Shown in pieces: positions 33,278 through 50,777 of a stretch of DNA of 64,000 nt. The DNA comes from Micromonospora sp. WMMD1120. GTDB lineage: Bacteria; Actinomycetota; Actinomycetes; Mycobacteriales; Micromonosporaceae. The stretch covers positions 2,636,501 through 2,700,500 of the forward strand of contig NZ_JARUBO010000005.1 in the NCBI RefSeq assembly GCF_029626235.1, in the 5' to 3' direction. The translations under genes and the position numbers were made by a program. The notes below the pieces were generated by a model. That model made no database searches, was not told the origin of the DNA, and saw only the letters and a list, made by a program, of their open reading frames with translations. The stretch's first letter is position 1, and every line of letters begins with the position of its first letter.

Positions 33278-34495
33278 CTATCCAGTCGGGCTTGGGCCAT
33301 GGGGGCGACGCTCGTGCCTGGTCGTGGCCCGGCCAGCGCCAAGTTGTTCGAGGATGTCGGAGCTGTCCGGGGCGAGAGCGGGCTTGACGATGTAGTGCCT
33401 GTTGGTGACCTGCTCGGTGGCGTGCCCGAGCTGGGCGGCGGCGTGTTTGGCGTCAGCCTCCTTGTCGATCAGCGTGGCGACGGTCTTGCGGAAGGTGTGT
33501 GGCGTGACCCATTCGAGGCCGGCGCCGATGCGGGCCTGACGCCACTGGCGACGCACGTTCTGCGGAGACAGCCAGGTGCCGCGCCGGGAGGCGAAGATCG
33601 CATCGTGGGGGTTGTCGGCGGCGTTGAGCTTGCGGGCCATCAGCATTCCTACTGCGAAGTGGGGAAGGACAACGGTTCGGAAGCCGGCGTCGGATTTCGT
33701 CCAGTCCTGCCGGAAGAAGCCCTTGCCCTTGAGGTAGACGATCGTGCCGCAGATGGTCAGTGTCGGGCGTTCGGCGGCAAGGTCGAGGTCTTCCCAGCGC
33801 GTTGCCAGGATCTCGCCGATGCGGGCGCCGGTGGCGAGCATGAGGTCGACGATGTCGCCCAGATCGCCGGTGTGCCGAGGCCCGGGTTTACCGGGAGTGG
33901 CCTGCTGCCACCGCCGGATTGCCGCACGGACGCCCTCCAACTGTTCTGTCTCTAAGGCGACGACCTTGCGGCGCGGGTTGCGTAGTCGGCCGGTTTCGCG
34001 GACGGGGTTGGTCGTTAGTGCGCCGCGGCGTACGGCCAGGGCGAGCATCTGCGTCAGGACGACCTTTGCGAGCCTGGCGGCTGTCGGGCGGTCCTCGGCG
34101 ACCTTGCGCAGGAACTTGTCGATGCGGCCGACGCTGGCCTCCCGGATACGAAGGTTGCCCAGGGCGGGCACGACCGAGACGCGCACGCTCACTTCGTACT
34201 GGCTGATGGTCTGCGGCGCGAGACGCTCTTCTGCGGTGATCTCTTCGAGCCAAAGGCTGGCGAGTCTGCTGATGTGGGTCTCGCGGGTGATCTCGTCCTC
34301 GTTGGGAGCGGCACGGTCACGAAGTTTGACCTTGAGCGCCCGGATTGCGGCGGGGCCGGTGGTGTCGGTGGCCTCGACGTCGCGGGTGCTGCCGTCGTAG
34401 TCGCGGAATCGGGCTCGGGCGCAGTACCGGTTGGGGCCGAGCTTCTCGGTGCGGATGTTGCCCCAGGTTCCGATGGGTAGTGGAGGCCGGGCCAT
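33278..34495 (-). CDS. int: Tyrosine site-specific integrase
   Basis: A 405-aa protein. N-terminal SAM-like core-binding domain (LASLWLEEITAEERLAPQTI). Catalytic set: R225 (ATGARIGEIL), K267 (WTKSDAGFR), H333 and R336 (TPHTFRKT), H358 (LGHA) and Y368 (TNRHYIV). All are present, so it should be active. It lies 3 bp downstream of the excisionase gene. It is the integration enzyme of the conjugative element to its right, and a candidate for mobilising the tRNA modules in trans, though that is unproven. Confidence 0.95.
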   Translation of the reverse strand: MARPPLPIGTWGNIRTEKLGPNRYCARARFRDYDGSTRDVEATDTTGPAAIRALKVKLRDRAAPNEDEITRETHISRLASLWLEEITAEERLAPQTISQYEVSVRVSVVPALGNLRIREASVGRIDKFLRKVAEDRPTAARLAKVVLTQMLALAVRRGALTTNPVRETGRLRNPRRKVVALETEQLEGVRAAIRRWQQATPGKPGPRHTGDLGDIVDLMLATGARIGEILATRWEDLDLAAERPTLTICGTIVYLKGKGFFRQDWTKSDAGFRTVVLPHFAVGMLMARKLNAADNPHDAIFASRRGTWLSPQNVRRQWRQARIGAGLEWVTPHTFRKTVATLIDKEADAKHAAAQLGHATEQVTNRHYIVKPALAPDSSDILEQLGAGRATTRHERRPHGPSPTG

Positions 34496-34498: not shown

Positions 34499-34708
34499 TC
34501 AGCGCTCCGGGTCGGTGTGGGCGTCGAGCCAGTGTTCGACCTCGCTGCGCCGGTAGCGCAGGCTGTTGCCGACCCGGATGGCGCGCGGTCCCTTGCCTCG
34601 GCTGTGCCAGGCGTAGAGGGTGTTCTTCGGCTTGCCCAACCAGGTCGCGACGTCATCGATGGTCAGGAGGGGGTCGGGTCGCCACTCGGCTGCCGTCGGG
34701 GTGCTCAT
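34499..34708 (-). CDS. xis: Excisionase-like helix-turn-helix protein
   Basis: A 69-aa protein from ATG 34708. DPLLTIDDVATWLGKPKNTL then YAWHSRGKGPRAIRVG and RYRRSEVEHWLDAH is the MerR-like HTH_17 excisionase fold. It directly precedes int. It would bend attachment-site DNA and bias int toward excision. It overlaps the preceding gene by 4 nt. Confidence 0.9.
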   Translation of the reverse strand: MSTPTAAEWRPDPLLTIDDVATWLGKPKNTLYAWHSRGKGPRAIRVGNSLRYRRSEVEHWLDAHTDPER

Positions 34709-35949
34709 TGCCGGCCCGGAGCAGTAGGTGAATCGAGTTGTGGGCGTGGCCCGTCGGGGTCGCCGGACCGCCGGTGGGCGGTGGGGTCGGGCTGTACGTC
34801 CCCCGGGGTGGGGTGCGGATAGGGCGGGCACGGATCGGACGTCCTTTCACCGTTCCGGTCCGGGTGGGACCGGGGATCGATGGCGCTGCCGCCGGGATTG
34901 GCGTTTCCGGGGGGCACCGCCTGGGCACGTCGATCCACGCGGTGCGGGGCGAAGGCATCAAGCCGGTCAGCGTGCGCCGATGTGCGCGCTGACCTGCACT
35001 CGGCGTCGTGTGGGACGGAGATCGTCGGGGCTCTCAGGACCAGCACGTCCTCGTGCTGGACGAGCCATTGCGGGTTACCGCTGGCGATGGCGTCGCGGAC
35101 GTTCTTCTGCTGGAAGAACGAGGCCCGAGGGATGATCACGCCGTCGCGGACGCCGCAGATGAGGGCGATGCACTCCTCGACCAGTTCGAGGCCGGCGTTG
35201 ATGCCGGCGGCGGCGACCATGCCGGGGATGTCGATGAGTTCGCCGTGGCGGCGGTAGGGCCGGGCGGTGACGACGACATGCCCGCCGGGCCGCAGCAGAG
35301 CCCGGCAGCCGGCAAGGATTGCGGTGAACCCGTTGGCGAGCTGGCCGTGGCTTCGGTACGCGAGGTTGTCCCCGCCGCCATACTTGTGGTTGATCTTGCG
35401 GACTTTGCCGCGTCTCGGGCCAGGGGTACGGACGTGGCCGTGGGTGGACGACCCGTAGGGCGGTGAGGTGATTACGAGGGAGACCTGGCCGTGCAGGCTG
35501 GCCGGCAGCAGTGCCGGCAGCGCGGTCGAGTCCCCGTGGTAGATCTCGCCCTGGCCCGGCGCCCCGGTCTGGACTGTGTGGCGGATGTTGTCGGCTGCCT
35601 TGGCGACCCATTCGGCTTCGTACTCGACGCCGACGCCGTGGCGGCCGAGGTGCATGGCCTCGATGACGGTGGTGCCGATGCCGGCCATGGGGTCGAGGAC
35701 CACCTCACCGGGGTTGGTGTAGGTGCGGATGGCGTACCGGGGGATGGTCGGCAGCATCTTGCCGGGGTGCGTCAACGACTCCCGGGTGTATCGGCCGCGC
35801 CGCAGGTCCCGCGACGCGGTTTGACCGGTGAGCCAGACCGAGCCGAGGTAGCCCTCGGTGAGCAGGGCGGCCAGGTCGGACGCGCCGGGGTACGGCGGTT
35901 CGGAGTGGTGGGGGCCGGCGGTGTGGAACGGCGAACGAGGCTCAGGCAC
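34705..35949 (-). CDS. DNA methyltransferase (N4/N6 type)
   Basis: 414 aa from GTG 35949. SAM-binding motif I is VVLDPMAGIGTT (residues 83-94) and catalytic motif IV is TSPPY (161-165), in I-to-IV order. The target-recognition part lies between (KVRKINHKYGGGDNLAYRSH). The last about 100 residues are Pro/Arg-rich and may be read-through of non-conserved sequence. The gene is overlapped by the degenerate paralogue upstream and by xis downstream. It probably protects the element from host restriction; no cognate nuclease is present. Confidence 0.88.
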   Translation of the reverse strand: MPEPRSPFHTAGPHHSEPPYPGASDLAALLTEGYLGSVWLTGQTASRDLRRGRYTRESLTHPGKMLPTIPRYAIRTYTNPGEVVLDPMAGIGTTVIEAMHLGRHGVGVEYEAEWVAKAADNIRHTVQTGAPGQGEIYHGDSTALPALLPASLHGQVSLVITSPPYGSSTHGHVRTPGPRRGKVRKINHKYGGGDNLAYRSHGQLANGFTAILAGCRALLRPGGHVVVTARPYRRHGELIDIPGMVAAAGINAGLELVEECIALICGVRDGVIIPRASFFQQKNVRDAIASGNPQWLVQHEDVLVLRAPTISVPHDAECRSARTSAHADRLDAFAPHRVDRRAQAVPPGNANPGGSAIDPRSHPDRNGERTSDPCPPYPHPTPGDVQPDPTAHRRSGDPDGPRPQLDSPTAPGRQ

Positions 35950-36664
35950 GGGCGTTCTCCTCACCGGTGGCGGTGGTGCCGAACACGAGCAGATCTCGGA
36001 AGGCCGGCAGGTGGCGGCCGGCGAGCAGACGGCGGCCGTCGTCGCCCTCGTCGGGGCGGTGCGGGGCGGTGCGCGGCTCGTGCTCGGGCAGCGGGACGAG
36101 GACGGCGGGGATGTGCTGGTGGTAGAAGAGTCCGGCGGCTCGGGCGGCGGCGATGACGGTGGCACGGTGGCTGAACTCTCCCAGCCGGGGCGGCGGGGCG
36201 GTGAGTCCGACCAGCAGGAACCCGCCAGGGCGTAGCAGAGGGCGCCAGGTGCGCATCGCCGTGGCCGCCTCGTCATGGGTGAGGCCCGGCGCGCCCTTCG
36301 GCAGGGTCGCCAGGATCAGGTCGACACGTGGGCCGGGACGGCGCAGGGCGTGGCACGTCCGGCGTTCGGGCGCGGGCGGCAGGAGCCGCACGTGCATGCC
36401 GTGGCGACCGGTGAACAGCCAGGCCGGTACCCGGTTCAGGTAAACGGTCGCGGCGATGGCGGTGGGGTGCGCGTCGAGGTCGAGCACCACGTCCCCGACG
36501 TGGGTGTAGCGGCGGATGAGGTAGGCGAGGTGGTTCGGGGATAGCCCGTGCCAGTCCGGCACTCCCGGACGGGGCGTGCGTGGGACGCGGGGGCGGGGAA
36601 GGAGCAGCCCGACCGGTGCCGGCTGAGGCCGGTCACCGGGGGCGGTGGAGCTGGGCTTCGGCAT
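35942..36664 (-). CDS. Degenerate methyltransferase-like protein
   Basis: 240 aa from ATG 36664. The fold is methyltransferase-like (VGDVVLDLDAHPTAIAATVY at motif I, VDLILATLPKGAPG at motif IV, WRPLLRPGGFLLVGL), but the SAM loop reads DLDAHPTA rather than DPxxGxGT and the catalytic SPPY is replaced by LPKG. Catalysis is unlikely. It overlaps the active methyltransferase gene by 8 nt, which suggests a structural or specificity partner. Confidence 0.7.
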   Translation of the reverse strand: MPKPSSTAPGDRPQPAPVGLLLPRPRVPRTPRPGVPDWHGLSPNHLAYLIRRYTHVGDVVLDLDAHPTAIAATVYLNRVPAWLFTGRHGMHVRLLPPAPERRTCHALRRPGPRVDLILATLPKGAPGLTHDEAATAMRTWRPLLRPGGFLLVGLTAPPPRLGEFSHRATVIAAARAAGLFYHQHIPAVLVPLPEHEPRTAPHRPDEGDDGRRLLAGRHLPAFRDLLVFGTTATGEENARA

Positions 36665-36698
36665 GGGCGTGTGGGCCACGTCCGCTGACAAGCGCTGA

Positions 36699-36735
36699 CA
36701 CTAGGGGATTACAAATCTGGGCCTCGAATTGGAAA
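36699..36735 (-). promoter_or_regulatory. 37-bp promoter-like element, copy 1
   Basis: On the minus strand it starts TTTCCAATTCGAGGCC and ends TTTGTAATCCCCTAGTG, 35 bp upstream of ATG 36664. 34 of 37 bases match the element at 39991-40027, which faces the transfer operon. Confidence 0.7.
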
Positions 36736-36778
36736 CCGACGTACTAGCCACGCGGGCGGCGCCGCCCCGGCGCGCCCT

Positions 36779-36807
36779 TTGAGCAAGATCCTCGACAGGG
36801 TTGAACA
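36779..36807 (+). repeat. Outlying iteron pair
   Basis: TTGAGCAAGATCCTCGACAG (36779) is followed by TTGAACACG at 36801, the same pair format as at 38676/38697. It lies on the other side of the metal-resistance cassette. Confidence 0.65.
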
Positions 36808-36851: not shown

Positions 36852-37487
36852 CTACCGTGGCAGCGTGTGATCGCCTCGGCTAGGCGGCTTGCCGATCCCG
36901 GGTAGGAAGCGGCCGACGTGGGCGGCGTAGCGGTCGTAGTCCTCGCCGTGGACGCGGCGAAGGTAGGGCTCTTCGATCCGGCGTACCTGGAGCTGCACTC
37001 CGATGATCGCGGCGGCGAGTCCGGCCAGCGCGATGGCGTTGGGTACGGCCAGGGCTGTCCCGGCGATGACCACTACGGCGGCGGTGAAGATCGGGTTCCG
37101 CACGAGGCGGAACGGGCCGGTGGTGACCAGGGTGGTGCGTTCGGCCTCATCGACGCCGATGCGCCAGGACCTACCCATCATGATCTGCGCCACGACGGTC
37201 GCTGCGGCAGCGACGATGGCCAGGGCAAGCCCGGCGAGGCGTAGCCAGGTCTGATCGAGGATGCCGATGGCCGGCAGGCCGATGAGGTCGGCGACCGGGG
37301 CGGCCAACCCGGCAGCGACCGCCCCGAAGCCGACGATGATGCGACTCCACCACTGGAGGCTGCCTCGTTTGCCGCCCGGCGAGCGCCAGCCAGCATCCCC
37401 GGTACGACGGGCCTGGATGAGGCTTCGCAGCCCGAACGCCAGTACCAGCCAGGCCACGTAGACGGTCAGGGCGGCGACGGCGATCAC
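36852..37487 (-). CDS. ICMT/PEMT-type membrane methyltransferase
   Basis: A 211-aa protein with about five hydrophobic segments and the family C-terminal signature TGPFRLVRNPIFTAAVVV, then RRIEEPYLRRVHGEDYDRYA and FLPGIG. This family methylates isoprenylcysteine in eukaryotes; in bacteria the substrates are mostly unknown, and such genes often travel with metal efflux genes. It overlaps the CDF gene by 4 nt and is the last gene of the cassette. Confidence 0.88.
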   Translation of the reverse strand: MIAVAALTVYVAWLVLAFGLRSLIQARRTGDAGWRSPGGKRGSLQWWSRIIVGFGAVAAGLAAPVADLIGLPAIGILDQTWLRLAGLALAIVAAAATVVAQIMMGRSWRIGVDEAERTTLVTTGPFRLVRNPIFTAAVVVIAGTALAVPNAIALAGLAAAIIGVQLQVRRIEEPYLRRVHGEDYDRYAAHVGRFLPGIGKPPSRGDHTLPR

Positions 37488-38209
37488 TGCGGGTTCCTAC
37501 CCTCGGTCGTGCAGCAGGCATCCGTGCAGCCCGGCCCGCACCCGCACCCGTCGGCGGCCTCCTGCTTCGGGCTCGTGGGGATGGTGCAGTCGTCGCACTG
37601 CTCGCCGCGCCAGGCTTCGACGCCTTCGCGGACGGCGACGGCGGCGATGACCAGTCCCGCGATCGGGTCGGCCGACGACCACCCCAACCACGCGTTGAGG
37701 CCCAGCCCGACGAGCACGATTCCGGACAGGTAGGTGCACAGCAGGGTCTGGGTGGAGTCCGCGACCACGGTGGTCGATCCCAGCTCTCGCCCGGTGCGGC
37801 GCTTCGCCCAGACCAGCAGTGGCATCACCACCACCGACACGGCGGCGATCCCAATTCCCACTGGTGACGGCTCGGCCTCGCCCTGGCCGAGCAGGGACCG
37901 GACGGCGTCGACGCCAATCCACGCGGCGAGGGCGAAGAACGACAGCGCGATCAGCCGCAATGCCAGCCGCTCGCGGGCTTCGGGGACGCGGGAGCGGAAC
38001 TGCCAGATCACCACCAGCGCGGAGGACACCTCGATGAAGGAGTCCAGGCCGAAGCCGAGTAGCGCGGTCGATGAGGCAGCCGCGCCGGCCGCGACGGCGA
38101 CGATGCCTTCGAGCGTGTTGTACCCGGCGGTGGCGTAGGCCAGGTGCAGGCTGCGCCGGTTGAGCTGTGCGCGACGCTGCGGGGTCAGGATCGACGTGGT
38201 CGCGCTCAC
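37484..38209 (-). CDS. Cation-efflux family transporter with Cys-rich tail
   Basis: A 241-aa protein with five to six hydrophobic segments (LLGFGLDSFIEVSSALVVIW with the CDF-like acidic site, ADPIAGLVIAAVAVREGVEA). The tail EQCDDCTIPTSPK and GCGCGPGCTDACC is a likely cytoplasmic metal-binding patch in place of the usual C-terminal domain. It overlaps the regulator gene by 4 nt. Likely Cd, Pb or Zn export driven by protons. Confidence 0.85.
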   Translation of the reverse strand: MSATTSILTPQRRAQLNRRSLHLAYATAGYNTLEGIVAVAAGAAASSTALLGFGLDSFIEVSSALVVIWQFRSRVPEARERLALRLIALSFFALAAWIGVDAVRSLLGQGEAEPSPVGIGIAAVSVVVMPLLVWAKRRTGRELGSTTVVADSTQTLLCTYLSGIVLVGLGLNAWLGWSSADPIAGLVIAAVAVREGVEAWRGEQCDDCTIPTSPKQEAADGCGCGPGCTDACCTTEGRNPQ

Positions 38210-38583
38210 TGGGTCACCGCCCGAGCATGGGTGGTGCCGTAGGTCGGGCAGAGCGCGACCGCCGAACCGGTCGCCGCCAGAACGCCTTCGGCTGCCTGGA
38301 GCAGGTCCATCAGCTCCGGACGGGTCAGCGCGTAGAACGACTGCCGTCCTTCGACGCGGTAGTCGATCAGGCCGCAGTCACGCAGGCAGGCGAGGTGCTT
38401 GGACACCGTCGACTGGGCCAAGCCCAGTTCGCCGGTCAGGTCCACCACCCGGGCCTCCCCGGCGGCGAGCCGCTGCACGATCCGCAGCCGGGTCTCGTCT
38501 GCCAGGGACCGGAACAGGGCCACGGCCGGGGTCATGCCGGCCGCGAGGTTTGCGGTGACACACCCGTCATCATTCATCGCCAT
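38206..38583 (-). CDS. cmtR: CmtR-like ArsR/SmtB metal-sensing repressor
   Basis: A 125-aa winged-helix repressor from ATG 38583. HTH STVSKHLACLRDCGLIDY carries C66 and C70, and C112 lies in the tail (ALCPTYG). This C-x3-C plus distal Cys arrangement, with a 42-residue gap, matches the Cd/Pb sensor CmtR (C57, C61, C102). The operator overlaps the start codon, and TATCAT six bases before the ATG suggests leaderless expression. It heads the CDF/methyltransferase operon. Confidence 0.88.
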   Translation of the reverse strand: MAMNDDGCVTANLAAGMTPAVALFRSLADETRLRIVQRLAAGEARVVDLTGELGLAQSTVSKHLACLRDCGLIDYRVEGRQSFYALTRPELMDLLQAAEGVLAATGSAVALCPTYGTTHARAVTQ

Positions 38584-38593: not shown

Positions 38594-38675
38594 TAGCCGG
38601 TTCTGGCGATGCTTTGTCTAGTGTTGCTAGCCCAGCCGACTCGTATTGCCTCCAAGAGCGCAATCCCGTCGTCGG

Positions 38676-39069
38676 TTGAACAAGATCCTCGCCTGCTTGA
38701 ACACAAGCCGACTGACCACCAGGAAGCCTTGAACAAGATCGTCATCTGCTTGAACACGAGGCGGGCCGACCGCCTCGGGACCTTGAACAAGATCGCGATG
38801 GGGCGTGAGCGCGCCTCGCGAAAGCCGCTTGTGGCCGTCCTACTGCACCCCGTGGCTGCGTCGTAGGCGACGCGTGTTCAAGGGTGCTGCCTCGACGTGG
38901 CTGCGCCCGGCGTGAAGGGCCTTGAACAGCCTGGCCACTGGTTGCACACCCCGACACGGGGTGTCCGCCCGCTGACATCGAGACGCATCGACCGGCGATT
39001 GACGACGGCTGGGTTGAACACGGGTCGAGGCACCTCGAACAAGATCACGAGTGTTCATGATCTGTTCAA
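38676..39069 (+). repeat. Iteron cluster, TTGAACA
   Basis: Perfect TTGAACA at 38676, 38697, 38729, 38750, 38783, 38922 and 39014; inverted TGTTCAA at 38875 and 39063; variants at 39035 and 39052. The first four form two pairs with 21-bp spacing, each starting TTGAACAAGATC. No gene lies in 38594-39147. The region resembles an origin or a multi-site operator. Confidence 0.85.
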
Positions 39070-39147
39070 AGGCCCTGGTGGCGTGGTGGCACAGCGCCGA
39101 TCGGCATTCCCGCCGGACGGCAACGGTCATCACGAGGGAGTACCACC

Positions 39148-39969
39148 ATGGACCGTCGTGTCCCCGCTACCGTGCCAGCCGTCTCTCGGCGCGGCGAGAC
39201 GCTGCTCAACGACATCGAGTACCGATTCCGGCTGATGGGGCAGGGGCCGAGCCCGCTGTCGGTGGACGGCCGCAGCCTCGGCCACGGCCTGCCCCGCCGT
39301 CGGATCGCCCTGCCCGAGCTGTCGGCGATCCTCATGCACCCGTCCTGCGGCTACGCCGGCCGGGACGCGTCGTGGCGGCTGCTGGTGCAACGTGCCCGTA
39401 CCGGTGACCCGGCGTGGCGTGCCGGTGTCGTCGGGGTTGCGCTGCCGGGCTTGCGGTTCAAGGCGTACCTGCTGGCCAAGCTGTTCACCGGCGACGTGCA
39501 GGCCGCCATCGTCGAGCACTTCCTTCGGGCTCTCGGCACGGTCGATGTAGCCAAGCCGGGCGTGGTCGGGAACCTGCTTTCGGCGGCGTTCTCCAAGGCC
39601 CGCGCGGAGCTGCGCGACCTGGAGCCCGTCTCGTCCGGGGCTCCGAACTACGCCCCGGGGGCGGTGTTGCCGCCGGCTGCGTACGGCCACCCGGATCTCG
39701 TTCTCGCTCGCGCGGTCGCCGCCGAGGTCATCACCGTTCAGGAGGCGGAGCTGATCGGCGCGACCTACCTGGAAGAGGTCAGCCTCACCGCCTATGCCGA
39801 GCGCACCGGCCAGCCCCGCTGGAACCTCTACAAGCGCCGCACTGCTGCCGTCGCCCGGCTCAAGGCCGCGATCGAGTCCGGGGAGCTGTCCGATCCGTAC
39901 GCCGACGTGATCAACGAGGCCACCGCGACCCTGGTCCTGGACGTACCTACCGTGCGGAAGCGCCCTTAA
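39148..39969 (+). CDS. Sigma-factor-like transcription regulator
   Basis: A 273-aa protein; GAGGGAG (39134-39140) precedes ATG 39148. The middle (ARTGDPAWRAGVVGVALPGL) resembles sigma region 2. The C-terminal part (AELIGATYLEEVSLTAYAER, TGQPRWNLYKRRTAAVARLK) resembles the region 4 HTH. Overall similarity is weak. It lies between the iterons and the transfer promoter, so it is the natural candidate for activating the 37-bp elements at 36699 and 39991. Confidence 0.65.
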   Translation: MDRRVPATVPAVSRRGETLLNDIEYRFRLMGQGPSPLSVDGRSLGHGLPRRRIALPELSAILMHPSCGYAGRDASWRLLVQRARTGDPAWRAGVVGVALPGLRFKAYLLAKLFTGDVQAAIVEHFLRALGTVDVAKPGVVGNLLSAAFSKARAELRDLEPVSSGAPNYAPGAVLPPAAYGHPDLVLARAVAAEVITVQEAELIGATYLEEVSLTAYAERTGQPRWNLYKRRTAAVARLKAAIESGELSDPYADVINEATATLVLDVPTVRKRP

Positions 39970-39990
39970 GCAACCCTTCTGAACTGCGAC

Positions 39991-40027
39991 TTTCCAATCC
40001 GAGGCTCGGATTTGTAATCCCCTAGTG
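39991..40027 (+). promoter_or_regulatory. 37-bp promoter-like element, copy 2 (transfer operon)
   Basis: Starts TTTCCAATCCGAGGCT and ends TTTGTAATCCCCTAGTG; three mismatches with copy 1. It lies 227 bp upstream of the pilin ATG with a non-coding leader between. Confidence 0.7.
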
Positions 40028-40253: not shown

Positions 40254-40697
40254 ATGAATCACCACCCGTTCCCACGCCCCGGGGCGGCGGACCGCCGCCC
40301 CGGGGCGGGCAGGCGCGGACGGCCTTGCGTCCGCCGCCCGCGTCGATACCGGTCTCGGACTGTCCGTGCCGCGCTGATGCTCCTCAACGCCGCCGCGGTG
40401 ACGGCAGCGCTCGTTGCCGTGCCGACCGTGGCGTGGGCGGCCGAGCCCGCTGCGGTGGTGCTGGCCGTCGAGTCGATCCAGCAGGTCGCCAACAACATCC
40501 GCACCTGGCTGATCGGCATCCTCGTCGCCGTCGCCACGCTCTTCTTGACCGTCGGCGGGCTGCGCTACCTAGCCGCCAATGGCGACCCCGGCGAGGTGGA
40601 GAAGGCCAAGCTCGCGTTGCGGTCCGCCGCGATCGGCTATGCCCTCGCGCTGCTCGCGCCGTTGTTCGTGACCATTGTCGGCGCGTGGGTGGCTTGA
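40254..40697 (+). CDS. Pilin-like conjugative protein
   Basis: 147 aa from ATG 40254 behind GGAGGTG. A long basic N-terminus, then an export signal (AALMLLNAAAVTAALVAVPT with AWA cleavage) and two hydrophobic helices (WLIGILVAVATLFLTVGGLR, AIGYALALLAPLFVTIVGA). Size and two-helix mature form match VirB2/TrbC-type pilins. First gene of the transfer operon. Confidence 0.7.
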   Translation: MNHHPFPRPGAADRRPGAGRRGRPCVRRPRRYRSRTVRAALMLLNAAAVTAALVAVPTVAWAAEPAAVVLAVESIQQVANNIRTWLIGILVAVATLFLTVGGLRYLAANGDPGEVEKAKLALRSAAIGYALALLAPLFVTIVGAWVA

Positions 40698-42757
40698 TGA
40701 ACGCCCTCGCGATCCGATCCCGCCGCACGGTCCGAGCGGTGTCGTTGCTGCTGCTCGGCGTGGTGATCCTTGCCGGCCTTGCCCTGAGCTGGGCCGGGCC
40801 GGCGCACGCCGAGCCGAGCCCGGCCCCCGGCCCGCCCGCTACCGCACCCGGCACGCCGCCAACGCCCGGCGTGCCTGACCCTGGCGTCCGCCCGCCGGGA
40901 GTGGATCCGTCACCCTCCGCGCCGGCCGCACCGGCACCCGCGCCCGGCCCGTCCCCGACTCCCGGCCAGCCTTTCGTTGACGATGATCCGGCCTGGTATG
41001 ACATCGGGAGCCAGATCCGCAAGGCCGTGGTCGAAATGGTCGTCTGGACCGCCGAGCAGGCTCTCCAGCCGGTGATGGAAGCCCTCGGCGCATCGTGGCT
41101 GTCCACCCCTGACCTCACCGACAACGAGCACGTCAAGGCGATCTGGACGACCAGCCTGATCACGGCCAATGGCGTCTTGGTGCTGTTCATCGTCGCCAAC
41201 GGTTTCCTCATTACGACCAGGGAGACCCTGCAGAGCCAGCATGGGCTCAAGCAGGTGCTGCCCCGGATCGCGCTGGGCGCGGTGCTGGCCAATTGCAGTC
41301 TGCTCATCGGTCAGCAGGCCATCGTGCTTACCAACGCGCTCACGGTGGCCATTGCCGGGAACACGGTTGACGGCCCGGCCGCAGCCGCCGCAATCGGGCA
41401 GATCGCGGACAACGCCCTGCAGGGCAAGGGCTTCCTGATGGTGCTCCTGGCCGTCGCCGTGGTCGTGATGTGCCTGCTTGTGGAGTTCACCTTCATCCTG
41501 CGGCTGGCCGCGCTGGTCATCCTCGTCGGCGTGGCCCCAGCGGCATTGATCTGCCATGCCAGCCCGCTCACCGAAGGCATCGCCCACACCTGGTGGCGTG
41601 CCTTCGCCGCCTGCCTCGGGTTGCAGATCGGTCAGGCGATCATCGTCATGGCCACGGTGAAGGTCTTCCTGACCCCCGCCGGGCCGACCGTGCTGGGCGT
41701 GCCCTCGACCGCAGACGGGCTCCTCGGCGTCCTGGTCTGCCTGACGATGCTCTGGCTGCTGATCAAACTACCGGGCTGGATGGGGCAGTTCGTCCTCGGC
41801 CCGCTCGGACAGCGCAACGGCAGGGGACTGCTCGGCCAGCTCATGCACGCCTACCTGACCATCAAGACGCTCGGCGCGGCGGCCGGCATCCTGGGCGGCG
41901 CGAGCGCGGCCCGGACCGCCCGACGGACGGCACCTCGTCCACCCGGCCCCCGTCCAGCGTCGGGCGGCCCCCGTCCGCCCCGTCCACCTCGTCCGCCCCG
42001 TCCCGGGCCGACTCCCGTCCCGCCGTCCCCGCCGGGACCGGCGGCCTTCAGCCACGCCCCAGTCACCCATACGCCGCTGCCTGCGCCGTCCGGGACGAAC
42101 GCCGCCCCTACCTTCAGCCACCCGGCGGCCCCGTCCACGCCACCGCCAGCGCCGTCCGGCGGTGTCCCGGCCGCGCAGTTCTCGCACCCGTCCGCGCCTC
42201 AGCCGAGTCCACCGCCCCTGGCCGCGCCGCCCGCCCGAGTCGCCTTCAGCGATGCCACGGCCACGACACCGAGCGCGACACCCCGCGGCGCGGCACCGGC
42301 GGTGGCGTTCTCCGCCGCACCAGCGCCACAGAGCGCGCCGCGCCGGCCACCTGCCCCGGTCACGCCGGTGTTCTCCACCGCTTCGGCCCCACCGGGAGCT
42401 GGCGGGTCACGACGAGCCTCGACCCCCGGGACACGGCCTACGGCGGCGCGGCGCGCCAGCCCGAGTGGGCAACCCGCCGCCAACCCGAGCACCCCGTCCC
42501 CGGCCCGGCGAGCACCGGCCGCCAGCGCATCCCGGCCTCGTCCACCGGCATCGTCCGTCCCGCCGTCCACGGACGGTCGGCGGTCAGCGGCCCCGACCCC
42601 GCCGCCGCGCCCGTCCCCGGCCCCGGCGGCTGGTGCGACCCCGGCGGGTCTGCCGGCCGTCCGTACCGGGCCGTCCCCGTCCCCGCCGTTCCCACCGCCG
42701 GCTCGATCGTCCGCCTCGGCGCGGCGCCCGTCGCGGAAGCGAGGTGATGAGCAGTGA
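40697..42757 (+). CDS. TrbL/VirB6-like membrane protein, Pro-rich tail
   Basis: 686 aa from ATG 40697 (TGATG overlap). Signal peptide (VSLLLLGVVILAGLALSWAG), Pro-rich linker (about 37-95), then about six transmembrane helices between residues 150 and 390 including FTFILRLAALVILVGVAPAA. The C-terminal about 270 residues are Pro/Ala/Ser low-complexity with FSHP/FS-type repeats. It should form the inner-membrane channel of the T4SS. The tail is strongly repetitive and likely variable. Confidence 0.82.
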   Translation: MNALAIRSRRTVRAVSLLLLGVVILAGLALSWAGPAHAEPSPAPGPPATAPGTPPTPGVPDPGVRPPGVDPSPSAPAAPAPAPGPSPTPGQPFVDDDPAWYDIGSQIRKAVVEMVVWTAEQALQPVMEALGASWLSTPDLTDNEHVKAIWTTSLITANGVLVLFIVANGFLITTRETLQSQHGLKQVLPRIALGAVLANCSLLIGQQAIVLTNALTVAIAGNTVDGPAAAAAIGQIADNALQGKGFLMVLLAVAVVVMCLLVEFTFILRLAALVILVGVAPAALICHASPLTEGIAHTWWRAFAACLGLQIGQAIIVMATVKVFLTPAGPTVLGVPSTADGLLGVLVCLTMLWLLIKLPGWMGQFVLGPLGQRNGRGLLGQLMHAYLTIKTLGAAAGILGGASAARTARRTAPRPPGPRPASGGPRPPRPPRPPRPGPTPVPPSPPGPAAFSHAPVTHTPLPAPSGTNAAPTFSHPAAPSTPPPAPSGGVPAAQFSHPSAPQPSPPPLAAPPARVAFSDATATTPSATPRGAAPAVAFSAAPAPQSAPRRPPAPVTPVFSTASAPPGAGGSRRASTPGTRPTAARRASPSGQPAANPSTPSPARRAPAASASRPRPPASSVPPSTDGRRSAAPTPPPRPSPAPAAGATPAGLPAVRTGPSPSPPFPPPARSSASARRPSRKRGDEQ

Positions 42758-43680
42758 GCCGCCGCAACGATGAGGCTCCGATGCGGGCTCGGGTTCCCGC
42801 GGACATCGAACGGCCGGACAGGATCGCGTTCGGCATGTCGGGACGGCAGTTGGTGATCCTGGCCGTCACGGGCCTCCTGCTCTACGCGGTGTGGACGGCG
42901 GTGGCCACGCTCGTGCATCCACTGGTGTTGCTCGCCGGTGCGATACCCGTCGCCGCCGGAGCGTTCCTGCTCGCGGTCGGCCGCCGCGACGGCATCAATC
43001 TCGACGCCTGGGTTCTCGCGGCGCTGCGGCACCGCCGCAGCCCGCGCCGGCTCGTACCGGCCGATGGACCGGTCATCCCGGCTCCGGCGTGGGTTTCCAC
43101 CACCGCCGGGCCGGGTGACCGGCTACCGCTACCCGCGCCGCTGCGGCTACCCGCGAGGGGCATTACCGGCGACGGGCTGGTCGATCTCGGTTCGGACGGC
43201 ATGACAGGCCTGGTCGCCGCCTCGACGGTGGCGTTCGGGCTACGGACACCGGGGGAGCAGAACGGCCTGGTGGTCGCGTTCGCGCGGTGGCTGCACAGCC
43301 TCGACGGCCCGGCGCAGATCGTGGTGCGGGCGCAACGGGTCGACCTGACCTACCTCGCCGACCGGTTCCTCGCCGCCGCCCCGGGGATGCCGCATCCGGC
43401 GTTGGAGGACGCCGCCCGCGCGCACGTGGCGTTCCTCGATGACCTGGCCGGGCAGCGCGAGCTGCTGCACCGGCAGGTCACCGTCGCCGTACGCAGCCAA
43501 CGCGGCGCGCACCACGCCGCGCACCACGCGGCCGAGGCGGTGCGCGCCCTCGCCGGGTGCGAGGTCCCCGCCCGGGTCCTCGATGGGACGGACGCCACAG
43601 TGCGGCTCGCGGCCAGCCTCGACCCCACCGCCCCGGCCCTCACGCCCTACGCCACATCTGACGGAGGTGAACAGCGGTGA
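42754..43680 (+). CDS. PrgI / SCO6880-type T4SS protein
   Basis: 308 aa from GTG 42754 (GTGA overlap). The N-terminal PrgI-like part has MRARVPADIERPDRIAFGMS and two hydrophobic helices (LVILAVTGLLLYAVWTAVAT, LVLLAGAIPVAAGAFLLAVG). The soluble C-terminal domain (EQNGLVVAFARWLHSLDGPA, DDLAGQRELLHRQV) is typical of actinobacterial SCO6880 proteins. VirB3-like role, docking the next gene's ATPase. Confidence 0.85.
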   Translation: MSRRNDEAPMRARVPADIERPDRIAFGMSGRQLVILAVTGLLLYAVWTAVATLVHPLVLLAGAIPVAAGAFLLAVGRRDGINLDAWVLAALRHRRSPRRLVPADGPVIPAPAWVSTTAGPGDRLPLPAPLRLPARGITGDGLVDLGSDGMTGLVAASTVAFGLRTPGEQNGLVVAFARWLHSLDGPAQIVVRAQRVDLTYLADRFLAAAPGMPHPALEDAARAHVAFLDDLAGQRELLHRQVTVAVRSQRGAHHAAHHAAEAVRALAGCEVPARVLDGTDATVRLAASLDPTAPALTPYATSDGGEQR

Positions 43681-45455
43681 GCCTGCTGTCCGCACTGCTG
43701 CCGACGCGGCGGCGTCCCGCGCCCGAGTCGGCCACGATCCTGCCCGGTTCCCCCGACGCCGTCGAGGTCGACGGCCGACACGTGCGGGTCGGGGACGGCT
43801 ACAGCGCCACACTCGCCGTCGTCGGCTACCCGGCCGAGGTCGGCCCGGGGTGGGCCGAGCCGATCCTGTCCTACCCGGGCCTGGTCGACGCCGCCTTCCA
43901 CATTGAGCCGGTCCCGCCGGCGGTGGCCTCCGAACGGCTGCGCAAGCAGCGCGGCCGGTTCGAGTCCTCCCGCCGCCATGACGCGGCCAAGGGCCGCCTC
44001 GACGATCCCGACCTCGACGCCGCCGCGACCGACGCCGCCGAGCTGGCCACGCGGGTCGCCCGAGGCGAGGCCCGACTGTTCCGCCTCGGCCTGTACCTGA
44101 CCGTCCACGGCACCAGCCCAGACGACCTCGCCGACCGGGTAACCGAGGTGCGGTCCCTCGCCGCCTCGCTGCTGCTCAACACCGCGCCGGTGACCTGGCG
44201 GCAGTTGCAGGGCTGGATCAGCGGCCTACCCCTCGGGTTCGACGCGCTCGGGATGAAGCGGGTCTTCGACACCGACGCCCTCGCCGCAGCCTTTCCGTTC
44301 ACCAGCCCCGACCTGCCCGACACCGCCGGAGACAACGGCATGGGCGTGCTATTCGGGCTCAACCTGCACTCGGCCGGAGTCGTCGTCTGGGACCGGTGGG
44401 CGCAGTCCAACTACAACGCCGTCATCCTCGCCCGCTCCGGGGAAGGCAAGTCCTACCTGGCCAAACTCGACCTCCTGCGCAACCTGTGCCTCGGCGTGGA
44501 AGCGTTCGTCATCGACCCCGAAGACGAATACCTACGGCTGGCCGACGCGGTCGGCGGCACGGTCATCCGCCTCGGTGCGCCAGGGGTGAAGATCAACCCT
44601 CTCGACCTGTCGCCCGGTGACGATGCGCTCAACGACCGGGCACGGTTCCTGCACACGCTCGTGACCGTGATGGGCAGCGGTGACACCGCCGTCAGCGCGC
44701 CCATGCCCGGCGACGAGGCCCGCTCCCTCGATGTGGCGGTGCTCGCGGCGTACCGGGCCAAGGGCATCACCACCGACCCGCGCACCTGGAGGCGACCGGC
44801 GCCGTTGCTGGCCGACGTGATGGCCTTCTTGGAGGACACCGACGACGCCGGCCGCCGAGTCGCCGACCGCCTGCACCCTTACGTGGACGGCAGCATGAAG
44901 GGCCTGTTCGACGGGCCGACCACCACCGCCGCGCAGGGGCACCTCGTGGTCTTCGCCATCAAGGACCTGCCCGAGCAACTTCACCCGGTCGGGACGCTGC
45001 TCACCCTGGACACGATCTGGCGCACCGTACGAGGCGCGACCGCCTCCGGCCAGCAGCCTGATGCGCTGCGGATGGTGCTGGTGGACGAGGCGTGGAAACT
45101 GCTCTCCGGCGGACGCGGCGGCGTGTTCCTGGAGACCCTGGCCAAGTCCGCCCGCAAGTACGGCGTGGGCCTGACCGTCGTGACCCAGGACGCCGCTGAC
45201 GTGCTCGCCACCAAGACTGGCCGCGCGGTCGTCTCCAACGCGGCTACGCAGGTGTTGCTGCGGCAGGCGCCGCAGGCGATCGACGCCGTGGCCGAGGCGT
45301 TCGGGCTTACTGACGGCGAGCGGGCGTTCCTGCTGTCCTGCCAGCGCGGAGACGCGCTCCTCGCGGCCGGGTCGGCGCGGGTGGCTTTCCACAGTCACGC
45401 ATCCGCGACCGAGCACGAGTTGATCGTCACCGGCCCGGTCGCCGGCCGCCGCTGA
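43677..45455 (+). CDS. VirB4-like T4SS ATPase
   Basis: 592 aa from GTG 43677. Walker A in LARSGEGKSYLA (251-262), Walker B MVLVDEAWKLL (466-476), and the HerA/FtsK-like arginine region in AKSARKYGVGLTVVTQD. CagE/TrbE-type N-terminal domain. It energises T4SS assembly at the inner membrane. Confidence 0.95.
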   Translation: MSLLSALLPTRRRPAPESATILPGSPDAVEVDGRHVRVGDGYSATLAVVGYPAEVGPGWAEPILSYPGLVDAAFHIEPVPPAVASERLRKQRGRFESSRRHDAAKGRLDDPDLDAAATDAAELATRVARGEARLFRLGLYLTVHGTSPDDLADRVTEVRSLAASLLLNTAPVTWRQLQGWISGLPLGFDALGMKRVFDTDALAAAFPFTSPDLPDTAGDNGMGVLFGLNLHSAGVVVWDRWAQSNYNAVILARSGEGKSYLAKLDLLRNLCLGVEAFVIDPEDEYLRLADAVGGTVIRLGAPGVKINPLDLSPGDDALNDRARFLHTLVTVMGSGDTAVSAPMPGDEARSLDVAVLAAYRAKGITTDPRTWRRPAPLLADVMAFLEDTDDAGRRVADRLHPYVDGSMKGLFDGPTTTAAQGHLVVFAIKDLPEQLHPVGTLLTLDTIWRTVRGATASGQQPDALRMVLVDEAWKLLSGGRGGVFLETLAKSARKYGVGLTVVTQDAADVLATKTGRAVVSNAATQVLLRQAPQAIDAVAEAFGLTDGERAFLLSCQRGDALLAAGSARVAFHSHASATEHELIVTGPVAGRR

Positions 45456-45495
45456 CCCGCCCTGGCGTCCCTCTCACCACCGATCGGAGTTCCCG

Positions 45496-46848
45496 ATGGT
45501 TGTCACGCTGTCCCCATCCCCGCCGCCAGCTCCTGCGATCCCCGGCGGGTGCATGGCCGGCCACGGCGGTGTGCCCCACTCGGTGGTGGGCGAGCTGCTG
45601 TGTGGTTCCTGGGGCGACGACGCCACCAACGCGGTGTGGCCGCTCGTCCGCGACCGGTGGCCGTTGCTCCTCGCCGCCCTGGCGGCGCTCGTCGCCGTGC
45701 GGGTCGGGTGCATGCGGTGGCGGCGGCGCATCTGGCGACGGCACGCCGCCGCAGCGCGATGGCTGCAGATCACCCCGCCGGTGACCGCCACTCCGGCCGC
45801 GACGATCGGCCTGTGGCGACTGCTCGCCACGGCGTTGCCCGCGCCGCGCCGGTGGGCGCTACGCCCGACCCGGCTGGTCTGGGAGGTCGCCGCCGACCCG
45901 GACGGTATGCGCTGCGGGCTGTGGCTGCCGCCAGGGGTCAACCCGACCGCCGTGGTGCGGCTGCTGCAACGCGGCTGGCCCGGCGTCCGCGCCGAACAGA
46001 CCCGCCCGCCGACCGTGCCCACCACCGGGGCCGTCGCCGCCCTCGCGGTCTGGCCGACGCAGCCAGAATGGCTACCCCTGGTCGACGACACCACGCCTAC
46101 CCACCGCCGAGGAGGCATGGACGCGAGCACTCCCGAAGAGGACCGGCTCCGGGCGGTCTACGGCGGACTCGCCTCAGCCGGGCGCACCGGCGGCGCAATC
46201 CTGCAAGTCCACCTTGGCCGCGCACCCGCCCACCGACTGCGGACGCTGCGCCGCGCGATGACCAACCCACACCGCGCCCGCCGTCCCCGAGGGACCGCCG
46301 GCGCCGCCGGGCTGCTCGCCGACGGGCTACGAGCACTGATCCTTGGCGTCCTGAATCTCGTCAACCCCGGCCCGTCGAGCCCGAAGCGGCACACCCGTGC
46401 GACTGACCCGTACACCGCCGAGCTGGTCCGGCAAGCGCGGGCGAAGTACGCCGACGCACCGCACTTGCTCGTCGCCGTGCACACGGTCGCCGCCGGCCCC
46501 ACGAAGGCCGCTGCCGTCGCCGCTGTGGCTGATGTCAGCTCCGGGTTCGGGCTGCTGTCGGCCCACTTCACCCGCCGCCGGCTACGGCATGGTGCGGTCG
46601 CGTCGGCCGACCGTTGGGTGCCCGAGGCCCGGATGAGCCTCGTCTCCATCGCGGAAGCCGCCGCCTTCGCCGGACTGCCCGCCGAACCGGCCGCCTACGG
46701 CCTACCCGGCGCGGCGTCACGGCGTCGGCCCGCCACCCGCGACATCTTTCGGACCTCCGGGCGGGAGACGCGCCAGCGCACGACGGTGCAGGCACAGCCC
46801 GGTGCAACCGAGGCCGACGACTCACCGACCGTCTGGAGCGCACCTTGA
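45496..46848 (+). CDS. Conjugation-associated membrane protein (450 aa)
   Basis: No characterised family recognised. One clear helix (WPLLLAALAALVAVRVG) near residue 60 with a short N-terminus and a large soluble C-terminal region (PYTAELVRQARAKYADAPHL, FGLLSAHFTRRRLRHGAVAS, SIAEAAAFAGLPAE). Position between VirB4 and the VirD4-like gene, overlapping the latter by 4 nt, is typical for a protein of the coupling complex in actinobacterial T4SS elements. Confidence 0.75.
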   Translation: MVVTLSPSPPPAPAIPGGCMAGHGGVPHSVVGELLCGSWGDDATNAVWPLVRDRWPLLLAALAALVAVRVGCMRWRRRIWRRHAAAARWLQITPPVTATPAATIGLWRLLATALPAPRRWALRPTRLVWEVAADPDGMRCGLWLPPGVNPTAVVRLLQRGWPGVRAEQTRPPTVPTTGAVAALAVWPTQPEWLPLVDDTTPTHRRGGMDASTPEEDRLRAVYGGLASAGRTGGAILQVHLGRAPAHRLRTLRRAMTNPHRARRPRGTAGAAGLLADGLRALILGVLNLVNPGPSSPKRHTRATDPYTAELVRQARAKYADAPHLLVAVHTVAAGPTKAAAVAAVADVSSGFGLLSAHFTRRRLRHGAVASADRWVPEARMSLVSIAEAAAFAGLPAEPAAYGLPGAASRRRPATRDIFRTSGRETRQRTTVQAQPGATEADDSPTVWSAP

Positions 46849-48440
46849 ACAAGATCCACACCCAGGCTGCTGCATCCAACTCCCGCCCGGAGGGCCGCAG
46901 GCTGAACCTGGTGCCGCTCGACCAGCGGCACGGCCTGGGCGGCAAGGTCATCGGTGTTGCCAACGCTGGCCCCGAGGTGCGGGTCGGGATCTCCCTGACC
47001 GATTGTCGGTACCACGTCCACGCGCTCGGACCGACCGGCACGGGCAAGACGACGCTGCTGATGCGGATGATCCTGGACGACGTGGAGGCCGGGCGCGGCG
47101 TGGCCGCGTTCGACCCGGCCAAGGGCGACCTGATCCGTGACCTCCTCGCGCGGCTGCCCAAGTCGTGTGGGGACCGGCTGGTGCTCATCGACCCGGACGA
47201 GCGGGCCGCGCCCCCGGCGATCAACCTGCTCGACCCGAGTGTGCACGGCGGCAGCGCGCACGACGTGGCCGCGAACCTGACAGCGGTGATGGCGAAGGTG
47301 TGGTCACGCTGGTGGGGCCACCGCACGGCCGACATCTGCTACCACGGCCTGCTCACCCTCGCCCACCTCGAAGGCGCCACCCTCGCCCAGCTGCCGCGGC
47401 TGCTGTCGGACTCCGCGTGGAGGACCGCCCGGGTCAACGCGGTCACCAGCAGGTTGAACGCCTGGGAGGGCAACACCCTCGGCGAGTTCTGGGAAGGGTT
47501 CAACGAGCTGCCCGCCGCGCAGCGCTCCGGCCTGGTGGCCCCGCTGCTGTCCCGGTTACGCCTCGTGCTGGCGCATCCGATGGCGAACAGCCTGTTCGGG
47601 GTGCCGGCCACCACGTTCTCGTTCGCTGACATCCTCGACGGTGGCATCATGCTCGCGCGGCTACCCAAGGGTGTCATCGGCGAGGACGGCACCCGCCTGG
47701 TCGGCTCGCTGCTCCTGGCCGGGTTGTGGCAGGCCACCACCGCCCGCGCCCGCATCCCTGAGGACGATCGCCCGGACGCGATGATCGTGCTGGACGAGTG
47801 CCACAACTTCCTGCACCTGCCCATCGGCATCGATGACGCCCTCGCCGAAGCCCGCGGTCTGCACACCTCGTTCGTCCTCGCCCATCAGTACCTCGGCCAG
47901 TTGTCCGGGGACATGGTGGAGGCGATTGACGCCAACGCCCGTAACAAGGTGTACTTCGCCCTCGCCCCCCGCGACGCCATCGACCAGGCCCGGCACCTGC
48001 GGCCCTACCTCGATGACGGGGACCTGATCCGCCTCGGTGGCTTCGAAGTCGTCCTGCGGCCGGTCGCGGGCGGGCGGGTCGTACCACCGGTCACCGCCGA
48101 CACCGAGCCTCCACCGCCGGCCGTCAAAGGGCGTGCCGGCGAGCTACGCCGGGCGGCCCGCGAGCACACCGGCCTCGCCGCCGAGGACCGTCGTCGGTTG
48201 CTCGGCGAGACCGCGACCGCTGCCGCACCGGCCGAGCGGTCGACACCCGTCGAGGCAGTGGTGGAACTGGTGGGCCGCAACACCTTCGCTTCTCACCCCG
48301 AGTGGTCTAACGAGACCTCTAACGAGCGATCCAACGAGCAACCCAACGACCACGAACAGCCGGGTGAACACGCCCCCTCGAACACGTCATACGCGCACGT
48401 GGACGGCGGTGAGGAGGACCCGTGGACCGGAACCGACTGA
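46845..48440 (+). CDS. VirD4/TraG-like coupling ATPase
   Basis: 531 aa from TTG 46845 (TTGA overlap; no better start). Walker A GPTGTGKTT (62-70), Walker B AMIVLDECHNF (312-322). FDPAKGDLIRDLLARL and EARGLHTSFVLAHQYLGQL are coupling-protein motifs; no N-terminal helices, so it may be tethered by the preceding membrane protein. The C-terminus (about 450-531) is acidic and low-complexity. Its first codons coincide with a TTGAACAAGATC iteron. Confidence 0.88.
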   Translation: MNKIHTQAAASNSRPEGRRLNLVPLDQRHGLGGKVIGVANAGPEVRVGISLTDCRYHVHALGPTGTGKTTLLMRMILDDVEAGRGVAAFDPAKGDLIRDLLARLPKSCGDRLVLIDPDERAAPPAINLLDPSVHGGSAHDVAANLTAVMAKVWSRWWGHRTADICYHGLLTLAHLEGATLAQLPRLLSDSAWRTARVNAVTSRLNAWEGNTLGEFWEGFNELPAAQRSGLVAPLLSRLRLVLAHPMANSLFGVPATTFSFADILDGGIMLARLPKGVIGEDGTRLVGSLLLAGLWQATTARARIPEDDRPDAMIVLDECHNFLHLPIGIDDALAEARGLHTSFVLAHQYLGQLSGDMVEAIDANARNKVYFALAPRDAIDQARHLRPYLDDGDLIRLGGFEVVLRPVAGGRVVPPVTADTEPPPPAVKGRAGELRRAAREHTGLAAEDRRRLLGETATAAAPAERSTPVEAVVELVGRNTFASHPEWSNETSNERSNEQPNDHEQPGEHAPSNTSYAHVDGGEEDPWTGTD

Positions 48441-49315
48441 TAAGAGATATCCCTCCTACCCGCACATCTGCCACCGGCAGTCTTCGCCTGACGGCGTCCG
48501 TCGTGGCCGCCGAACTCGGTCGGCTCACCCCCCGAGACCGGCTCCTGCTGGACCTGCTCGACCAGCACCGGACGTTCACAACCGGCCAGCTCGTCGACCT
48601 GGCCTTCGGCTCGGTCGGCCGTGCCCGCAACCGCCTCAACACCCTCCACGATCGAGACATCCTCGACCGGTTCCGCCACTACCAACGGCCCGGCTCGCAA
48701 GCCTGGCGGTGGACCCTAGGCCCGGTTGGCGCGGCCATCATCGCGGCCGGACGAGGCGACGCGTTGCCCCGTCCGGCCGTTGTGCGCGACGCCACCGCTC
48801 GACTCGCCATGTCGCCGACGCTGGCGCACCTGCTCACGGTGAACGGGTTCTTCGTCGCCCTCACGGCCCATGCCCGCACGCACCCCGGCGCACGGCTGGC
48901 ACGGTGGTGGAACGAGACACGCTGCCGTGAGGTGTGTGGCAACCTGGTCCGCCCGGACGGACACGGCGTGTGGGCCGACAACGGCCCGGCGGTGCCGTTC
49001 TGGGTCGAGGCCGACCTCGGCACCGAAACCCTTGCCCGGGTCGTAGGCAAGCTGACCGGCTACGCCGCACTACCGCCCCGCCGCGCGTACCCGGTGCTGT
49101 TCTGGCTACCCACCACCGCCCGTGAGACCAACGTGCACACCCACCTACGCCGGGCTCGGGTGCCGCACGGGGTGACCATCGCCACCGCCGCCGCCAACCA
49201 CGCCACGGCGTCCGGCGGCCCGGCGGGGCCGGTCTGGCGTATCGTCGGGCACCTCGACCGGGTGAGTCTGGCCGAGCTGCCCGCACCGGGCGGTGGCGCG
49301 CCGTGGGACGAGTAG
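48422..49315 (+). CDS. Replication-relaxation family protein (Replic_Relax)
   Basis: 297 aa from GTG 48422, 19-nt overlap with the coupling gene. Winged-helix N-terminus (LTPRDRLLLDLLDQHRTFTT, LVDLAFGSVGRARNRLNTL) and the Replic_Relax core WVEADLGTETLARVVGKL, then YPVLFWLPTTARE. This family acts in DNA processing for conjugation or replication of actinobacterial and clostridial mobile elements and may be the relaxosome component here; no classical MOB relaxase was found in the window. Confidence 0.85.
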   Translation: MDRNRLIRDIPPTRTSATGSLRLTASVVAAELGRLTPRDRLLLDLLDQHRTFTTGQLVDLAFGSVGRARNRLNTLHDRDILDRFRHYQRPGSQAWRWTLGPVGAAIIAAGRGDALPRPAVVRDATARLAMSPTLAHLLTVNGFFVALTAHARTHPGARLARWWNETRCREVCGNLVRPDGHGVWADNGPAVPFWVEADLGTETLARVVGKLTGYAALPPRRAYPVLFWLPTTARETNVHTHLRRARVPHGVTIATAAANHATASGGPAGPVWRIVGHLDRVSLAELPAPGGGAPWDE

Positions 49316-50436: not shown

Positions 50437-50777
50437 TAGTCATTTCAACTCAGAAACCACGACCCCGTAAGACAGTCTGAGCGGCCCCCGCGCCGTGCAC
50501 CCTTGCAGCCCAGGGAGTCGCGCCGAACATGCCGCAGCGTCGGACATGGGGCCGTCAAATGGCGTTTCGGGCGGTGGTAGCGGTTCCTGAATCGAGAACG
50601 GAAGCGGCGCACGGTGGTGCCCCGTAAAGAGTCTTGCCCAACGGGGTTGACAATCATCCGGTGCAGAGGGTCCATGGACGTGGGCAACAAAAACCGCCCC
50701 GGCGGAACCGCAAACAATGCGCGTTACGCGTACGCGGAATCGCTATTTGTCGACCCCTTATGTGGAGGTGTATTGCC
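50437..50777. other. Leader region of the second operon
   Basis: About 340 bp without a supported gene; it must hold the promoter of the 50778 operon. GGAGG at 50764-50768 is the ribosome binding site. No copy of the 37-bp element or of TTGAACA occurs here. Confidence 0.45.

Follow-up and report, generated by a model that had tools for sequence, protein, structure and literature searches.

To our knowledge, little is known about the switching-on of T4SS-type ICEs in actinobacteria. Actinobacterial binding sites of the SARP or PhoP type consist of direct heptamer repeats that lie on one helix face at distances of about 11 or 22 bp, and the iterons of plasmid replication origins (oriV) are direct repeats spaced about 21–22 bp apart. 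ECF-type/sigma-70 factors, e.g., SigL from M. tuberculosis or SigmaE from E. coli, possess the domains sigma2 and sigma4 and employ two-box promoters with a fixed spacer, and their sigma4 recognition helix covaries with the -35 box. SetCD of SXT/R391 is described, in the available sections of the source, as a transcriptional activator complex and not as a sigma factor (PMC4344509). For PrgX of pCF10 and Rco of pLS20, control by DNA looping with two operators is described in the available sections of another source (PMC6540685).

In Micromonospora sp. WMMD1120, we analyzed a stretch of 64,000 nt (NZ_JARUBO010000005.1, positions 2,636,501–2,700,500 of the forward strand), hereafter the window, in which an array of TTGAACA heptamers precedes the gene for a sigma-like factor, termed sigmaP. 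Like the sites for PrgX and Rco, this array would belong to a conjugation control region with several operators and divergent promoters, as far as these are covered in PMC6540685, but its heptamers are non-palindromic, number up to 14, and keep their phase across about 500 bp, and its putative target is a sigma gene. As in the SARP/PhoP-type repeats, the heptamers occupy one side of the helix with spacings of about 11 or 22 bp, but the word, TTGAACA, is a different one and no SARP/OmpR-type regulator was recognized among the ICE genes tested. It resembles plasmid iterons in having direct repeats about 21–22 bp apart, but their number and order are irregular, the GC content is high, and no adjacent initiator was recognized. 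As for SetCD, the regulator is encoded by the element itself and would switch on transfer genes (PMC4344509, in part); unlike in that system, a single type of sigma promoter is present in two copies, one on the excision side and one on the transfer side.

A helically phased TTGAACA array upstream of sigmaP

A first-pass annotation of the window, made from the sequence alone, had noted nine perfect TTGAACA copies in both orientations within about 400 bp, and our recount for 38676..39069 also yields nine, seven on the plus strand (38676, 38697, 38729, 38750, 38783, 38922, and 39014) and two on the minus strand (38875 and 39063). The two pairs 21 bp apart that it had mentioned are 38676/38697 and 38729/38750, each consisting of TTGAACAAGATC and, 21 bp further on, TTGAACAC. 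As it had also stated, no gene occurs there, the array being situated between an ArsR gene (38206–38577, minus strand) and the sigmaP gene at 39148 in an intergenic stretch (38578–39147) with 62% GC. Its expectation that the heptamer should be rare holds for the window, where 13 copies are found vs. 1.24 expected and none of 100 shuffles reaches 13; at the window-wide expected rate, the Poisson probability of at least nine copies in 394 bp is 2.4e-25, for an interval picked post hoc around a cluster that had already been seen. In the 7.15-Mb genome, TTGAACAAGATC occurs four times, three times in the array (38676, 38729, and 38783) and once at 46845, and a reversed-pattern control gives 0. Same-strand TTGAACA pairs at distances of up to 30 bp account for five matches genome-wide; four of these lie in the array and one place elsewhere harbors the other, so that the motif is not equally dense elsewhere; equal density is what the annotation had named as refuting its reading.

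The best conserved part of the array is the promoter-proximal cluster at 39014..39069, composed of 39014 (plus), 39035 (plus, one mismatch), 39052 (minus, one mismatch), and 39063 (minus). A distal pair on the plus strand (36779..36807), formed by TTGAGCAAGATC at 36779 and TTGAACA at 36801, is parted from the main array by three cargo genes (36852..38577, minus strand) for an ICMT/PEMT-like methyltransferase, a CDF cation efflux protein, and the ArsR-type regulator. A single TTGCACA at 38942 within the array corresponds to the variant word present in all seven copies of one related locus (L168). At Rfam gathering thresholds, no match is obtained near the array, and one tRNA is found elsewhere. 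A structured RNA leader before sigmaP was considered and discarded, as its folding does not exceed chance expectation (z -1.55; equalled by 16 of 200 shuffles).

The annotation had proposed to search other ICEs for the motif, and the array indeed precedes sigmaP in most related loci. At least three TTGAACA copies are present in the 650 bp before sigmaP in 48 of 53 distinct loci with at least 50% sigmaP identity, a count that leaves out 45 duplicates, 11 loci without sigmaP, three with a short upstream stretch, and two in which the start is missing; none of 360 downstream control windows contains as many. Resolved by sigmaP identity, such arrays occur in 27/27 loci at 80% or more, in 3/4 at 60–80%, and in 18/22 at 50–60%, and below 50% in 1 of 21 loci. 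The five loci without the array possess two copies (L081), one copy (L153, L154, and L174), or none (L162). In our genome collection, all 14 relatives of the 39148 protein have TTGAACA before their gene, three of these records being short or partial. The array is a conserved feature of the family.

Copy number (0–14) and spacing vary freely among loci. Same-strand spacings are mostly 11, 20–22, 31–32, 42–43, or 53 bp, which correspond to whole turns, and phasing at 10.5 bp amounts to R=0.74 (161 same-strand pairs from 47 loci). With 20 loci drawn from the array-bearing ones, one or a few per subgroup, R is 0.65, and the highest value that 2000 random placements reach is 0.33. The TTGAACA copies share one helix face, and helix-phased sites repeated upstream of one and the same gene across relatives are the layout expected of a multi-site operator.

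In more distant relatives the words differ. Class-wide, outside the family, at least three TTGAACA copies exist in one of seven tested loci (L196); the six others have none, nor does L202, whose upstream stretch is short. Fourteen loci at 38–42% sigmaP identity (L136–L149) carry CCAACAG-type words in place of TTGAACA, with at least three copies in 11 of them, and all 100 shuffles are beaten in just two (L138 and L140); these words are also less strongly phased, with R 0.37 at 10.5 bp for 54 pairs from 19 loci. The seven TTGCACA copies of L168 and the six TGGCACA copies of L153 do not beat all shuffles either.

sigmaP and two mirror-image outward promoters

The sigmaP gene (39148..39969, plus strand) encodes a divergent protein of 273 amino acids for which a sigma2 domain (about residues 69–163) and a sigma4 domain (about 176–248) are predicted. 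It lacks the Pfam sigma match of ECF-type/sigma-70 factors, no family of Pfam or NCBIfam being found at E≤0.001, and further differs from them by a conserved N-terminal extension (about residues 19–60), by being borne on a T4SS ICE, and in that no anti-sigma gene was recognized. Sigma70_r4_2 is detected in 7 of 64 relatives, with weak matches (best E 0.004), and comparing its profile with solved structures gives a hint of region 4 of a sigma factor (E 0.027). Sigma factors are the top Foldseek matches of the AlphaFold2 model (pTM 0.55, mean pLDDT 83), the best at E 3.2e-3 and none at or below 0.001, and most VIA-align rows are sigma factors as well. The model's sigma2 superposes on 8i24_F over 93 residues at 3.0 Å and its sigma4 (179–244) on 3vfz_A over 62 residues at 1.7 Å. 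sigmaP is thus predicted to contain sigma-factor domains 2 and 4; as no curated sigma profile matches, we speak of a sigma-like factor that would work like a sigma, and its recognition of -35 and -10 boxes is supported by covariation. At least 557 homologs, 120 of them listed, emerge from a protein search in which the best 7998 candidates were scored, and 197 of 354 family genomes contain a relative at E 1e-3. sigmaP's own promoter and start site were sought but not located.

Array and sigmaP are flanked by TAGGGGATTACAAATC, which, with up to two mismatches, occurs just twice in the whole genome, at 36702 (plus) and 40009 (minus). Read outwards, each copy consists of a -35-like TTTCCAAT, a spacer, and a -10-like TGTAATCC followed by TAGTG. 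The left putative promoter (36699..36737, minus strand) stops about 20 bp short of the start codon (GTG 36679) of the first gene in the left set (35945..36679, minus strand, about 245 aa). The right one (39989..40027, plus strand), an inverted copy, lies between sigmaP and the T4SS operon (40254..50349, plus strand) and precedes the pilin gene (ATG 40254), the operon continuing with genes for a VirB6-like protein, PrgI, and a VirB4-like ATPase, an ORF at 45496, and genes for a coupling-protein-like ATPase, Replic_Relax (48422), and an M23 peptidase. The two face the methyltransferase/integrase gene set on the left and the T4SS operon on the right. The left set includes a methyltransferase-like gene (34705..35964, minus strand; PF01555/PF01170), the start codon of which is uncertain as the ORF is open to 36276, and behind it, after a gap of 209 bp on the same strand, a tyrosine integrase gene (33278..34495). 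In L181, L185, and L192, too, the methyltransferase gene is followed by an integrase gene, as it is by distant ones in L006 and L129. With a weight matrix built from 31 promoter copies, the window's own two included, these two score 70.1 and 72.0 bits, and the rest of the right strand stays at or below -14, save the overlapping reverse of one copy. Among 88 promoter copies from 51 loci, both boxes are kept, and the spacer is fixed in length and poorly conserved.

The left flank is usually 0.4–0.9 kb from sigmaP, and this distance reaches 2.4–7.4 kb in 7 of 38 normally oriented loci. In the window, the enlarged gap is due to metal-type cargo inside the array, and in the genome G168 to IS elements outside it; two transposase genes inserted at a CTAG explain the odd flanks of G168. 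The locus L089 of another genome (G260) breaks at the same CTAG and sits at a contig end. Between the left promoter and sigmaP there appears to be a spot for cargo insertion (36852–38577 in the window; L129, L092, L130, L012, and L159), and ORFs in the left gaps of L129, L092, and L130 are HNH nuclease-like, Hypoth_Ymh, and a TauD fragment. Loci L084–L088 together with L089, which have the left promoter and a few TTGAACA copies and no sigmaP, were set aside as decayed ICE remnants; in L085 (7898–9875) the N-terminus of a Replic_Relax gene continues in frame into a NUDIX domain gene. Regarding the ends of the ICE, the tRNA 3' end is not repeated within the window. The 5' part of the tRNA at 29087–29159 is duplicated exactly over 46 bp (window positions 17331–17376 and 29079–29124), which suggests tandem integrations to the left of the ICE.

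Covariation connects sigmaP with both promoters. With 22 loci clustered at 85% identity, APC-corrected mutual information ranks W225 first and R224 second in coupling to the -35 box, both at the start of the predicted sigma4 recognition helix, and S145, in the last sigma2 helix, is the residue most coupled to the -10 box; as residue 225 is outside the top 15 for the -35 box when mutual information is divided by entropy, the ranking by itself is suggestive. Stronger is a direct count over the 51 loci in which one or both promoters are present (both in 37). K225 goes with TTCGA in 10/10 loci and W225 with a different box in 40/40 (39 with TTGG and one with TTTGC), the remaining locus having a gap at position 225, and wherever a locus possesses both promoter copies they agree on the -35 type. 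On a tree of sigmaP residues 1–196, the K/TTCGA state requires five changes, at least four of them forced by well supported branches. Judged from these sequences, residue 225 and the -35 box switch together repeatedly, with no exception in 50 loci, and this joint switching indicates that sigmaP very probably reads both outward promoters.

Alternative readings and the reader of the array

The first-pass annotation had offered two ideas, an oriV/oriT for the element or an operator of the sigma-like regulator. The second is the better one, given that the array precedes sigmaP in 48/53 loci and that sigma2 and sigma4 are predicted; as an operator of sigmaP, a reading we consider rather likely, the array is better explained than as an origin of transfer, an origin of replication, or a centromere.

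Best surviving among the alternatives, and in our view unlikely, is that the array represents oriT, a part of it, or a site of relaxosome assembly, where the repeats would be bound by Replic_Relax or by an accessory protein of the winged-helix type, which would position a relaxase beside the T4SS operon. Winged-helix proteins that bind oriT boxes, such as TcpK, provide a precedent, phased direct repeats do adjoin the transfer operon, and the array is next to that operon in 38 of the 39 loci with both flanks and is the part nearest to it in the inverted one. The element encodes a Replic_Relax protein, and this family is counted among the relaxases in the available sections of one source (PMC11104534). 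Against such a function, neither a nic site nor a strand-specific hairpin was identified, and the array always stands before sigmaP and not before the Replic_Relax gene about 9 kb away; moreover, the 2.4–7.4 kb found between left flank and sigmaP in 7/38 loci imply that the array region tolerates splitting.

Nine or more heptamers at about 21–22 bp would fit an iteron origin from which the excised ICE replicates, or a centromere for its partition, but this reading is very unlikely considering that copy number and spacing are so variable between loci and that neither an initiator nor a partition gene was recognized adjoining the array among the genes examined. An iteron origin would be expected beside an initiator gene and an AT-rich stretch, and the intergenic stretch at issue is the GC-rich one described above.

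Still less probable is a reading in which the inverted repeats serve as recombination sites and array plus sigmaP form a module whose programmed inversion switches conjugation. In one genome (G287; L126, 13301–14789), array and sigmaP are indeed inverted between the promoters when compared with the orientation of the T4SS operon and of the methyltransferase gene. This is the case in 1 of 39 distinct loci with both flanks, the other 38 showing one orientation, whereas in an invertible switch both orientations should be common and the crossover sites identical; within one locus, the two copies have different spacers between their boxes, which fits promoters better than crossover sites, and the flank breaks of G168 are caused by IS insertions. 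The G287 element itself looks decayed, as VirB4 was not found in it, nor was most of the coupling protein. As recombination between near-identical promoters would leave both of them in place, we read this inversion as incidental, having probably arisen by chance.

The least probable reading, that the array is sigmaP's own binding site for autoregulation through sigma4, can appeal to the resemblance of TGTTCAA to the -35 box TGTCCAAA of some relatives, but the -35 box changes from TTGGA to TTCGA with W225 to K in 10/10 loci, while 9 of these 10 retain at least three TTGAACA copies, and in L168 and L175 one recognition helix (RWAAYRRR) and one promoter type go with different array words (TTGCACA and TTGAACA, respectively). 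Since the array word is independent of these switches, the array seems to be read by something else, and the 39148 protein is probably not its binder; where the annotation had thought of the sigma-like regulator as binding there, the sites of sigmaP are very probably the promoters outside 38676–39069. A reader encoded by the host is disfavored as well, because two genomes that the tool used assigns to one genus, G320 and G324, have different array words (L093/L094 vs. L168).

As a lead, we tentatively propose the product of 50634..51974 (plus strand), a MarR-like protein with three predicted winged-helix domains (model pLDDT 76) and a zinc-ribbon-like stretch, by association with the array. 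MarR-type winged-helix matches are found in 46 of its 48 relatives, and in a locus from another actinobacterial family (L204) the gene of a relative with two winged helices is immediately followed by a TTGAACA array that has sigmaP and pilin behind it. Among array-bearing loci with enough flank, the protein is present in the window, L126, L180, L181, L184, and L185, and as fragments in L182 and L183. It is also encoded in L178 and L190, where the array differs or is missing, and in L178, with its other array word, the conserved third winged helix displays no change that would obviously correspond. It was not found in the fetched stretches of L176/L177, L191, and L192, the last of which has only three TTGAACA copies and, in the stretch fetched, also lacks the coupling protein and Replic_Relax. 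Nor was it found in seven loci of the distant CCAACAG group, which distance alone could explain.

A model for the control of excision and transfer

Under the operator reading, the array would be a multi-site operator controlling sigmaP and probably the master control region of the ICE. An ICE-encoded regulator would bind several TTGAACA heptamers on one helix face and set sigmaP expression, and sigmaP would direct RNA polymerase to the two near-identical promoters facing outwards from the module. The left promoter would serve the methyltransferase/integrase gene set on the excision side and the right one the T4SS operon on the transfer side. Computed for this model were the conservation and phasing of the array, the predicted sigma fold, the two promoter copies, the covariation of sigmaP with both of them, and the independence of the array word from the sigmaP recognition helix. 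From these we infer that the array controls sigmaP transcription, and in which direction, who its binder might be (50634–51974 being the best lead), and that the integrase gene may share the left promoter.

It is quite possible, if somewhat less than evenly so, that the circuit as a whole is of a kind not described in the literature searched: a multi-winged-helix regulator would fill up to 14 phased heptamers and set sigmaP, which would fire mirror-image promoters so that excision and transfer genes start together, and the independent evolution of array and promoter words would insulate related ICEs from one another. The available sections of that literature (including PMC11104534, PMC3218068, PMC9632896, and PMC6540685) mention no ICE-encoded sigma factor with such an array, which does not prove its absence in print.

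The locus offers a testable circuit consisting of an operator array, a sigma factor, and two identical outward promoters. The paired changes of a sigmaP residue and a promoter position amount to a natural specificity experiment and predict which sigmaP serves which ICE. Phased heptamers before a sigmaP gene that is flanked by inverted promoters provide a signature for locating such ICE control regions, and in antibiotic-producing genera, e.g., Micromonospora and Actinoplanes, the locus may represent a control point for using or blocking conjugation.
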